From contig JAGBEG010000017.1 of the NCBI GenBank assembly GCA_017937095.1, positions 62,001-126,000 of the forward strand: 64,000 nucleotides of DNA, in the 5' to 3' direction. The position numbers were made by a program, and so were the translations under genes. The notes below the pieces were generated by a model that did not search any database, was not told the DNA's origin, and saw only the letters and a program-made list of their open reading frames with translations. The stretch's first letter is position 1. The number at the start of each line of letters is the position of its first letter. Of this stretch, positions 2,053 through 55,634 are shown piece after piece. Source of the stretch: Roseburia sp. (GTDB lineage: Bacteria; Bacillota; Clostridia; Lachnospirales; Lachnospiraceae).

Positions 2053-2252
2053 GACAGCTTGCTGGCAATTCCGGCTATATGGGGACTGATAGGGCGAATG
2101 CCCGTGAGCCCGGCAGCTATGCTGACGGGCGTGCACTGCGGAGTAAAGTCGAAGCGACAGCAAGCAGGCAATTCCGGCTATATGCGGACTGATAGGGCGA
2201 ATCGCCCAAGCGTCAGCCAAGCTGCCACGTGCACTGCGGAGTAAAGCCGGAA
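2053..2252 (+). ncRNA. Tandem pair of structured leader elements before nrdD
   Basis: Two direct repeats, 2053-2154 and 2155-2252. Each has conserved blocks (GGCAATTCCGGCTATATG, GGACTGATAGGGCGAAT, GTGCACTGCGGAGTAAAG) and can fold as a closed three-way junction: an outer stem CCGGC with GCCGG (copy 2) or with GTCG (copy 1), a first hairpin GGGC-GAAT-GCCC or GGGCG-AAT-CGCCC, and a second hairpin that differs in sequence but keeps pairing: CCCG-g-CAGC-tat-GCTG-a-CGGG in copy 1, CGT-c-AGC-caa-GCT-gc-C-ACG in copy 2. Compensating change plus conserved loops points to a functional RNA, possibly a tandem riboswitch controlling nrdD. I do not recognise a known class. A dispersed repeat element that happens to sit here is the main alternative. 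The rest of the 1855-2052 spacer holds only the promoter and short motif already listed. Confidence 0.6.
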
Positions 2253-2291: not shown

Positions 2292-4484
2292 ATGAAGATT
2301 ATTAAAAGAAGCGGCAGTGAGGATACATTTGATCTCGGAAAAATCGAGGCGGCGATCCGCAAGGCAAATGACAGTGTCATTGATTATGAAAAGCTGAGTG
2401 ACGAAAAGATTCAGACGATTCTTGCAAACGTAGAGAAAGCCTGTGAGAATATGAAGCGTTCTCCTAGTGTGGAGGAGATTCAGGATATGGTAGAGAATCA
2501 GATCATGAGTCAGCGCGCCTTCAATGTCGCACGTAATTATATTACCTATCGTTATAAGAGGGAACTGGTGCGTAAGTCCAATTCCACGGACGAGCAGATT
2601 TTAAGCCTATTAGAGTGCAATAACGAGGAAGTAAAGCAGGAGAACTCCAACAAGAATCCGACCGTAAACAGCGTACAGCGCGATTATATGGCGGGCGAGG
2701 TCAGCAAGGACATCACCAGAAGATTCCTGCTTCCGCCGGATATCGTGGAGGCGCATGAAAAGGGAATCATCCATTTCCATGACGCGGACTATTTCGCACA
2801 GCACATGCATAACTGCTGTCTGGTCAACCTCGAGGATATGCTCCAGAACGGAACCGTCATCAGCGAGACGATGATCGATACGCCCAAGAGCTTTTCTACG
2901 GCGTGCAATATTGCAACACAGGCGATCGCGCAGATTGCAAGTTCCCAGTACGGCGGACAGAGCATTTCCCTGTCTCATCTTGCGCCGTTCGTTCAGGTGA
3001 GCCGCGAGAAATTCCGCAGACAGGTACACGCAGAACTTCTGGAAGCGGGGATTGAGGCGACCGAGGAAGAGGTCAACAAGATGGCGGAGATGCGCGTGAA
3101 GGAAGAAATCAACCGCGGCGTACAGATGATTCAGTATCAGGTCATCACACTGATGACGACGAACGGACAGGCACCGTTCATTACAGTGTTCATGTATCTG
3201 GATGAAGTGCCGGAGGGACAGCTCAGAGACGACCTCGCAGCGGTGATCGAAGAGATGCTGCACCAGAGGATTCTGGGTGTTAAGAACGAGCAGGGCGTGT
3301 ATATCACCCCGGCGTTCCCGAAGCTGATCTATGTGCTTGAGGAGGACAATATCAGAGAGGGTTCCAAGTACTGGTATCTGACAAAGCTCGCGGCGGAGTG
3401 TACGGCCAAACGCATGGTGCCGGATTACATTTCCGAGAAAATCATGAAGAAGCTGAAAGCAGGCGACTGCTATACCTGTATGGGATGCCGTTCGTTTTTG
3501 ACGGTGGACCGCACAGAGAGCAATCTGGCAAATGCCCTCAACTATAAAGAGGGCGGACATAAGTATTACGGTCGTTTCAATCAGGGCGTTGTGACGCTGA
3601 ATCTGGTGGATGCGGCATGTTCTTCCGGCGGAGACGAGAAGAAGTTCTGGGAGATTATGGACGAGCGCCTTGATATGTGCTACCGTGCGCTTATGATTCG
3701 CCATAACCGCCTGAAAGGTACGCCTTCCGATGTGGCGCCGATTCTCTGGCAGAACGGTGCGCTTGCACGCCTGAAAAAGGGAGAGACGATCGATAAGCTT
3801 CTTTATCACGGCTATTCGACGATTTCACTTGGCTATGCGGGACTGTGCGAGTGTACAAGATACATGAAGGGCGTTTCCCACACAGAGCCGGAAGGCACGG
3901 AGTTTGCGCTTGCTGTGATGCGGTATTTGAACGATGCCTGCGCGAAGTGGAAGGCAGAGACGGATATCGATTTCAGCCTTTACGGAACGCCGTTAGAGTC
4001 CACGACTTATAAGTTCGCAAAGTGCCTGCAGAAGCGTTTCGGCGTGATTGCGGGTGTTACCGATAAGAATTACATCACGAACAGCTACCATGTGCATGTG
4101 ACAGAGGAAATCAACGCATTTGACAAGCTGAAATTCGAATCCCAGTTTCAGGAGCTGTCGCCGGGCGGTGCAATCAGCTATGTGGAAGTGCCGAATATGC
4201 AGAACAATCTGGATGCCGTGCTCTCAGTCATGCAGTATATCTATGAAAATATCATGTATGCAGAGCTGAATACGAAGAGTGACTATTGTATGGAATGCGG
4301 ATATTCGGGAGAGATTAAGATTGTCACAGACAAGGACGGAAAGCTCGTATGGGAGTGTCCGAACTGTGCAAACCGCGATCAGAACAAGATGAGTGTCGCC
4401 AGAAGAACCTGTGGGTATATTGGAACACAGTTCTGGAATCAGGGCAGGACACAGGAAATCAAAGAACGCGTATTACATTTGTAA
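2292..4484 (+). CDS. nrdD: Anaerobic (class III) ribonucleoside-triphosphate reductase
   Basis: Reduces ribonucleoside triphosphates to deoxynucleotides under strict anaerobiosis, using a glycyl radical made by NrdG. The 730-residue protein starts with an ATP-cone allosteric domain (about residues 3-90, MKIIKRSGSEDTFDLGKIE), has the catalytic barrel with the YTCMGCRSFL segment, a C-terminal four-cysteine zinc site (CMECGYSG and CPNCANRD) and the glycyl-radical loop RTCGYIG about 20 residues from the end. Start at 2292 is set by the AGAAGAAGGG ribosome binding site; upstream in-frame codons lie in the structured leader. It forms a pair with nrdG but a terminator lies between them. A tandem leader element and a strong promoter precede it. 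Confidence 0.97.
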   Translation: MKIIKRSGSEDTFDLGKIEAAIRKANDSVIDYEKLSDEKIQTILANVEKACENMKRSPSVEEIQDMVENQIMSQRAFNVARNYITYRYKRELVRKSNSTDEQILSLLECNNEEVKQENSNKNPTVNSVQRDYMAGEVSKDITRRFLLPPDIVEAHEKGIIHFHDADYFAQHMHNCCLVNLEDMLQNGTVISETMIDTPKSFSTACNIATQAIAQIASSQYGGQSISLSHLAPFVQVSREKFRRQVHAELLEAGIEATEEEVNKMAEMRVKEEINRGVQMIQYQVITLMTTNGQAPFITVFMYLDEVPEGQLRDDLAAVIEEMLHQRILGVKNEQGVYITPAFPKLIYVLEEDNIREGSKYWYLTKLAAECTAKRMVPDYISEKIMKKLKAGDCYTCMGCRSFLTVDRTESNLANALNYKEGGHKYYGRFNQGVVTLNLVDAACSSGGDEKKFWEIMDERLDMCYRALMIRHNRLKGTPSDVAPILWQNGALARLKKGETIDKLLYHGYSTISLGYAGLCECTRYMKGVSHTEPEGTEFALAVMRYLNDACAKWKAETDIDFSLYGTPLESTTYKFAKCLQKRFGVIAGVTDKNYITNSYHVHVTEEINAFDKLKFESQFQELSPGGAISYVEVPNMQNNLDAVLSVMQYIYENIMYAELNTKSDYCMECGYSGEIKIVTDKDGKLVWECPNCANRDQNKMSVARRTCGYIGTQFWNQGRTQEIKERVLHL

Positions 4485-4541: not shown

Positions 4542-5060
4542 ATGAATTATTCGGGAATCAAATATTGCGATATCGCAAACGGTACAGGAGTAAGGACGGT
4601 ATTGTTCGTTTCCGGGTGCAGAAATCATTGCAAGGACTGTTTCCAGCCGGAAACATGGTCGTTTCAATACGGGAAGCCGTTTACCGCGGAGGTGGAGGAA
4701 GAACTTCTTGCATCACTTGCGCCGGATTATATCAGAGGGATTACTCTGCTCGGGGGAGACCCGTTTGAACCGGAGAACCAGAAAGCACTGCTTCCGTTTA
4801 TGAGACGCGTGTGGCAGGAGCATCCCGGCAAGGACGTCTGGGCGTACACAGGCTATGTGCTGGAACGTGACCTCGTCCCGGGCGGAAAATGTTATACAGA
4901 AAATACAAAGGAACTTTTATCCGGCATTGACGTGCTTGTGGACGGACCGTTCGTCACGGAGCTTCACGACATTACCCTGAAATTCAAGGGATCGAAGAAC
5001 CAGCGCGTCATTGATTGTAAGCATTATTGCAGTACCGGGGAGATCCGGGAACTTATGTAG
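4542..5060 (+). CDS. nrdG: Anaerobic ribonucleotide reductase activating enzyme
   Basis: A 172-residue radical SAM enzyme that installs the glycyl radical on NrdD. The iron-sulfur motif CRNHCKDC sits about 27 residues from the start, followed by GGDPFEPEN, the SAM-binding glycine-rich segment. The start at 4542 follows AAAGGA with a 7-base spacing; a start further upstream would lie inside the terminator stem and is unlikely. It is downstream of nrdD and separated from it by an intrinsic terminator, which would keep the activase substoichiometric, as fits a catalyst. Confidence 0.96.
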   Translation: MNYSGIKYCDIANGTGVRTVLFVSGCRNHCKDCFQPETWSFQYGKPFTAEVEEELLASLAPDYIRGITLLGGDPFEPENQKALLPFMRRVWQEHPGKDVWAYTGYVLERDLVPGGKCYTENTKELLSGIDVLVDGPFVTELHDITLKFKGSKNQRVIDCKHYCSTGEIRELM

Positions 5061-55412: not shown

Positions 55413-55488
55413 GTATTTCCTCCTGTACATGATATAATGAGCGCAAGAGAGTCAACCTGCTTGCAGGAATGACGAACGGCGAATGCCG

Positions 55489-55513
55489 ATCGTGTGCCGT
55501 CTTTGCACACGAT
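55489..55513. repeat. Inverted repeat before the lectin gene
   Basis: ATCGTGTGC and GCACACGAT with a 7-base centre, between the divergent lectin and glycosyltransferase genes. Possible operator. Confidence 0.5.
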
Positions 55514-55634
55514 ATAATGATACCATATTTTACGGTTTATACAAGGCGAGGGTGGCTATAGTACGCATGGAAAGGGATAGCGTGAAATGATATTCCTTTT
55601 GGTGCAGGGCATACATTTGAATGGAGAGAATCAA

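Follow-up and report, generated by a model that had tools for sequence, protein, structure and literature searches.

A doubled hairpin in the nrdD leader of a Roseburia sp. looks less like an nrdD riboswitch and more like a copy of an apparently mobile, structured repeat family of Lachnospiraceae

The window analysed here is a stretch of 64,000 nucleotides from a contig of Roseburia sp., in which nrdD and nrdG are preceded by a consensus promoter and a leader with two hairpin-rich modules. The features of the locus are the following, all on the + strand; nrdD and nrdG are host genes and lie outside the element.

1980-2007, +: promoter TTGACA-16-TATAAT, with 12 of 12 sigma-70 consensus bases
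2008-2148, +: first, complete element, from GTACAAGTAAGCAATGAGC to GGAGTAAAG, its probable exact ends placed from relatives
2025-2031, +: P1 5' strand GCAGTGC, pairing with 2133-2139 in the fold and covarying in relatives
2032-2088, +: P2, a long variable hairpin of the 57-nt class with a G(CUUG)C loop
2092-2103, +: P3, a short conserved hairpin, GGGC-GAAT-GCCC
2108-2130, +: P4, a hairpin with a Watson-Crick base in the window copy
2133-2139, +: P1 3' strand GCACTGC
2149-2246, +: second, partial module (47.9 bits with model R1), with a P3-like hairpin at 2195-2207, a degenerate P4 and a second GCACTGC at 2231-2237
2292-4484, +: nrdD, anaerobic ribonucleoside-triphosphate reductase (TIGR02487 and NF006732 over cut-off)
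4542-5060, +: nrdG, activating protein (TIGR02491 over cut-off)

A sequence-only reading of this DNA had described two adjacent copies with shared blocks behind a strong promoter. Copies, blocks and promoter are all present. The borders given for the structure, 2053..2252, were misplaced, as the start falls inside P2 and the 5' strand of P1 lies upstream and was missed. The closing stem proposed at that time, CCGGC/GCCGG (2172-2178 with 2246-2252), is fully paired in the second copy but only there; comparison supports P1, not this stem. The second module lacks a 5' P1 strand of its own and contains P2 only in part, and similar degenerate modules were seen by eye at three other loci (L052, L325, L308). 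When folded alone (2013-2148), the element formed P1, P2, P3 and P4 in a four-way junction that matches the comparative structure (z -2.8; 2 of 200 shuffles fold as well), whereas the whole 261-nt leader folds less distinctly (z -1.8; 12 of 200 shuffles equally good). No Rfam family was found at the leader position at gathering score, and at E<=5 the two matches over 1850-2450 both lay outside the element and belonged to eukaryotic families. The description of the leader as structured, promoter-proximal and of no recognised class is supported, and its covariation is real.

Two models were used to find relatives. R1 was built from 16 cores (17 cores are listed); the window is one of these seeds, and its first element scored 82.4 bits. 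R2 was built from 35 elements, the window not among them, and found the window element at 2011-2141 with 79.1 bits and E 1.5e-17; the E-values of both models are rough, yet this match is still far beyond chance. Blastn with the leader matched 11 of 299 genomes of the family, this genome included. The R1 core was present in 155 of 397 sampled Lachnospiraceae genomes (E<=0.01), that is, in about two fifths, and in 7 of 10 genomes chosen from the genus. This genome carries 42 units, its nearest relative 20 and eight other congeners 0-8 each; R1 searches of more than 40 genomes used stricter filters and limited the number of candidates scored (12 per genome in the search of 397), so that their copy counts are to be read as "at least". 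A complete unit measures about 130-150 nt, extra tandem modules occur at some loci, and more than one unit was present in 26 of the 91 loci examined. Eighty loci were chosen by hand among the highest-ranking hits; the locus set drawn from genome contigs required GAGCAGTGC and ATAGGGCGAA.

In the class sample R1 matched 9 of 291 genomes, five of them from other families; by eye, two of these five show the full design (L350, L353), one is plausible (L351) and two look like chance (L354, L355). A sequence-pattern scan of named genomes returned at least 119 stretches, and among the 80 listed nearly all titles were Lachnospiraceae or Clostridia, with four from clearly other phyla. On those four records R1 detected no element, only a 12-nt match at E 2.2, and on the single viral contig matching the pattern it found nothing at E<=10. 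As blastn of 2008-2246 gave no match in the phage or the plasmid collection, phage or plasmid cargo was rejected as an origin. Within the literature and terms covered, no paper on this element was found. A catalogue that lists putative structured RNAs from human microbiomes by the thousand (PMC8040213) could hold the element unnamed.

P1 was read in 197 elements, among which the search pattern had favoured GCAGTGC, and occurred as GCAGTGC/GCACTGC in 111, GCCGTGC/GCACGGC in 11 and GCCATGC/GCATGGC in 3; separate P1 pair counts from the core-unit set were left unused, because the search biases them to G-U. P3 is conserved, with the consensus GGGCGAA(N)GCCC, and of the 110 distinct core units 93 have a tandem G-A in P4, its place being taken by Watson-Crick pairs in 15-16. 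P2 falls into length classes of 57, 60, 61 and 65 nt. Covarying pairs, which the sequence-only reading had named as a check, are there. Alignment A4, from which R2 was built, comprises 35 of the 47 listed elements of the 65-nt class, the window not included; the 12 others were set aside before counting for their odd P4 length or uncertain ends. A4 contained 95.7% paired cells, and its covariation was 0.564, where shuffles gave 0.149 and none of 500 came up to it; each of the 24 pairs of P2 shows two-sided changes.

RNA families should contain more G-U than A-C. Among 144 distinct P2 sequences of the four length classes, counted at positions at least 60% Watson-Crick, there were 2573 Watson-Crick pairs, 77 GU, 69 AC and 267 others. 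A4 contained 23 GU, 28 AC and 325 two-sided changes, against 23 GU, 4 AC and 37 two-sided changes in a SAM riboswitch control of 23 sequences from the same bacterial family (23 of 30 loci; its structure came from RNAalifold, that of the element was defined manually). Fisher tests gave p 0.0007 (GU:AC) and 9e-10, the cells not being independent, and a small control of 12 tRNA genes pointed in the same direction (GU 8, AC 1). Paired double changes, transversions among them, distinguish orthologous copies. L178/L187 and L197 show a contiguous 3-nt difference in one arm, which leaves one arm perfect in L197, and in the orthologous pair L049/L141 the flanks are 83-90% alike while most of the P2 helix has been replaced, each version being self-complementary. 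That compensatory changes make so little use of G-U suggests maintenance in the DNA, where P2 pairing may be kept by template switching or because the folded DNA itself matters. Template switching has been proposed to maintain RNA hairpins (PMC8794818).

Many elements stand at a fixed distance behind a -10 hexamer. Of 193 elements, 106 have a TATAAT-like hexamer that ends exactly 15 nt ahead of GAGC, whereas chance would give 1.7 per position; the left end of the window element has the same spacing, and 50 of the 193 have no such hexamer. Where no -10 was recognised and an upstream gene was called, 32 of 58 loci begin within 20 nt after the end of a same-strand gene, and by eye some elements follow the T-tracts of terminator-like hairpins. 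Towards the next gene, 156 loci are in sense and 10 in antisense orientation (p 8e-35) among 166 called loci outside ORFs; of 190 loci, 9 inside a called ORF and 15 without a called downstream gene were left out. The family is unusual in preferring the sense orientation and the downstream edge of a -10 box. The sequence-only reading had set its proposal against a dispersed repeat, scattered in both orientations with no link to gene starts; the matches are indeed dispersed, but they are linked to gene starts and run in the sense direction.

The genes behind the elements share little. Genes were called with a simple ORF script, and gene names were assigned by eye except for nrdD, nrdG and pcrA. 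From 223 element loci, 172 called downstream proteins were obtained, which form 146 sequence families, the largest with four members (murA by eye); judged by these families, the downstream genes do not belong to one pathway. Six loci are preceded by a gene and followed by a called convergent ORF, three of these ORFs being only 67-111 aa long. At L004 a SAM riboswitch is followed by the element and then by the downstream gene (metK by eye).

Related genomes differ in which loci are occupied. Ten gene starts of this genome were sought in the nearest relative and nine were found. By eye, L339 and L347 look clean and unfilled, L346 is ambiguous, L340 is occupied by a different insert, L342 lacks a similar leader, and L341, L343, L344 and L345 look like deletion relics with internal deletions, so apparent losses in the relative (four) outnumber clean empty sites (two) among the nine loci compared. 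L347 (opposite L314) appears clean, as does the pcrA site of the relative, where the same promoter is present and TATAAT leads straight into the leader without the element; L346, the counterpart of L325, still has CGCGT and is possibly a relic. Of 19 congeneric pcrA loci read, only that of this genome has the core, searched as the exact string TAGGGCGA, within 140 nt upstream, and the pcrA leader of G397 contains a GGGCGATGCGCCC stretch that may be a distant relative of the element. No direct repeat was visible at the pcrA locus. Across the element, direct repeats of at least 10 nt occurred in 7 of 168 cases, three of them tandem-module matches and four -10 repeats, against 2.2 expected in a swapped-partner control, a figure raised by the promoter consensus that the loci have in common. 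At five loci (L309, L231, L138, L227; L314 by eye) the element is followed immediately by a second extended -10.

The nrdD leaders of the genus, read by eye, contain the element in 2 of the 14 that were fully readable (four further loci were not anchorable and one was cut off), namely in this genome and at L257, where P2 is different; in the nearest relative there is at most a doubtful trace. The element is not tied to nrdD. At L257 (1190-1451) the element is followed by modules repeating every 78 nt in three copies. Short tandem repeats directly after the 3' end of the element were also observed at L117, L126, L115, L099, L076, L122 and L309, as though tandem duplication were favoured there.

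Eight of the loci examined in this genome, the nrdD pair not counted, have a counterpart among the element loci of the relative. In the 12 of 18 orthologous pairs that were parsed, with gaps left out, identity was 94.6% in the core, 86.6% in P2, 76.8% in the next 60 nt and 87.8% at 100-400 nt downstream, which is mostly coding. Core conservation at orthologous loci exceeds what a dead insert should show; it is the best argument that some copies may also be useful, or that copies may be homogenised, and on account of it a regulatory role stands as a rival explanation.

We consider it probable that the stretch before nrdD is a copy of a dispersed, non-autonomous and apparently mobile family of MITE/BOX-like structured repeats of Lachnospiraceae that inserts downstream of -10 hexamers, a reading that explains the fold, the spread, the turnover and the lack of gene coherence. 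Several observations speak against it: the search for PF01797 yielded no mobilising enzyme, -10 direct repeats are few, complementary ends extend beyond P1 in only a few copies, the core is highly conserved at orthologous loci, and apparent losses outnumber clean sites. The single strand folds into the four-way junction, closed by P1, with a hypervariable P2, a conserved P3 and a P4 that usually carries tandem G-A. Moved by an enzyme acting in trans, new copies would enter directly 3' of an existing -10 hexamer or, alternatively, in the short space that follows a stop codon or the T-tract of a terminator. With its own promoter kept, the gene would gain a structured leader, presumably transcribed in the sense direction, which would be mostly tolerated and possibly sometimes useful, and a step at the DNA level, involving the folded single strand or template switching, would keep P2 paired.

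REP/RAYT elements and the ends of IS200/IS605 are hairpin DNA that is moved without an enzyme of its own. The likeness to the present family lies in the hairpin DNA, but the Y1 transposase PF01797, for which we searched as a candidate mobilising enzyme, does not track copy number (10 of 16 genomes rich in elements have it, and so do 8 of 12 with no hit) and gave no match in this genome, which is 94.57% complete; a REP/RAYT system with a Y1 transposase was rejected on both grounds, and the search yielded no mobilising enzyme. In L179 only housekeeping-like genes, by eye, lie between inverted copies, and an autonomous parent there was likewise rejected. With MITEs, as treated in PMC3049150, the family shares multiple dispersed copies in which no coding capacity was found and presence or absence at given sites, with empty sites in relatives (L339 and L347 apparently clean, L346 ambiguous, among nine loci); the short complementary ends (P1) and a possible target duplication may be further likenesses. 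It differs in that the PF01797 search found no transposase with matching ends, and the ends are complementary over 7-9 bp in most copies and over more only in a few, mostly from Roseburia; long complementary ends were therefore dropped as a general feature. BOX of Streptococcus pneumoniae, in the part of PMC3049150 that describes it with RUP and SPRITE, is also a short dispersed repeat that is predicted to fold strongly and is built of modules, the inner one repeated, without a clear functional class among its neighbours and able to lie in 5' leaders, even between T-box leaders. In the same source BOX is over-represented between convergent genes, whereas the Lachnospiraceae family is nearly always in sense orientation and upstream and often at a fixed distance from the -10. 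The likeness to BOX is one of design only.

More tentatively, and with the balance against it, the family may target the melted promoter, so that folded single-stranded DNA would enter the transcription bubble just where the -10 ends downstream, in a single orientation, and ordinary promoters would each acquire the same sort of structured leader. In the genus, inserts of other types take the same position and have a similar left end, TATAATGNNCGC, by eye.

Two further kinds of leader were observed. At 55431-55520 of the window a shorter, relative-looking insert sits right behind TATAAT and consists of a CUUG hairpin, a CGGCGAATGCCG hairpin and a third hairpin, with GATATAATGA on both flanks; copies lie at L386 and L387, in which R2 found no match, and blastn matched it in 10 of 21 genus genomes including this one, several matches being partial. 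By eye, a third kind of hairpin-rich leader is located directly behind TATAATGAACGC at L399 (the pcrA leader of G400) and at L077, with an AAGTTTC..GAAACTT hairpin and a left end resembling that of the other two kinds.

A cis-acting regulatory RNA of general role, for instance a protein-binding leader, a processive antitermination element or a global riboswitch spread by selection to many promoters, is in our estimation rather unlikely. It would account for the sense bias (156 of 166), the strict fold, the conserved core in the 12 of 18 orthologous pairs, a predicted transcript start within the left end of the element where a -10 is present (about 2013-2016 in the window), and the place of the element between SAM riboswitch and downstream gene at L004, but it agrees poorly with 172 downstream proteins in 146 families, with presence, absence and apparent relics between related species, with the lack of a G-U preference over A-C and with the six loci before called convergent ORFs, short as three of these are. 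Still less probable is a 5' stabiliser of mRNA or an RNase III processing site, whose junction and long duplex would protect or process the transcript, also after stop codons inside operons; the location at the predicted 5' end, the 24 pairs of P2 in the 65-nt class and the 32 of 58 loci close behind a same-strand gene fit this proposal, whereas turnover between related species and, again, G-U not being preferred over A-C do not.

A leader peptide starting at ATGAGCAGTGCC is very improbable. Taking the four P2 length classes in turn, an ATG or TTG is present there in 52 of 56, 18 of 20, 20 of 21 and 44 of 49 elements, and by eye several copies carry the double stop TGATAG, but the frame is open through P2 in only 21 of 56, 9 of 20, 8 of 21 and 38 of 49, respectively, 22 of 56 elements of the 57 class stop after 6 codons, and P2 lengths of 57, 60, 61 and 65 keep no single frame; the peptide was rejected as its frame is not kept through P2.

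Tandem riboswitches such as the glycine riboswitch have two similar folded modules in one leader, and in this respect the nrdD leader is alike; it differs in having only one P1 5' strand, a partial second module, no gene link and no Rfam match. A riboswitch specific for nrdD, with a nucleotide or cobalamin as ligand, is hardly credible: structured leaders precede nrdD in two congeners, but the nucleotide or cofactor riboswitch linked to nrdD that had been guessed from the sequence was rejected in view of the 155 of 397 genomes with the core, the diverse downstream genes in 146 families, the patchy presence between related species and the low share of nrdD leaders with the element.

Altogether, the doubled hairpin before nrdD looks less like a riboswitch for this gene and more like a copy of an apparently mobile repeat. 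This repeat sits in the leaders of housekeeping genes (nrdD and pcrA, as well as murA and metK by eye), and it should be annotated before such leaders are interpreted as riboswitches. The P2 helix, the sequence of which changes with hardly any passage through G-U, offers a natural test case for the template-switching proposal of PMC8794818. If insertion next to the -10 is targeted, it would represent an unusual kind of target choice for a transposon, and if melted promoters are indeed the target and the like left ends are taken together with this, one shared mobilising enzyme may serve a superfamily of such elements.
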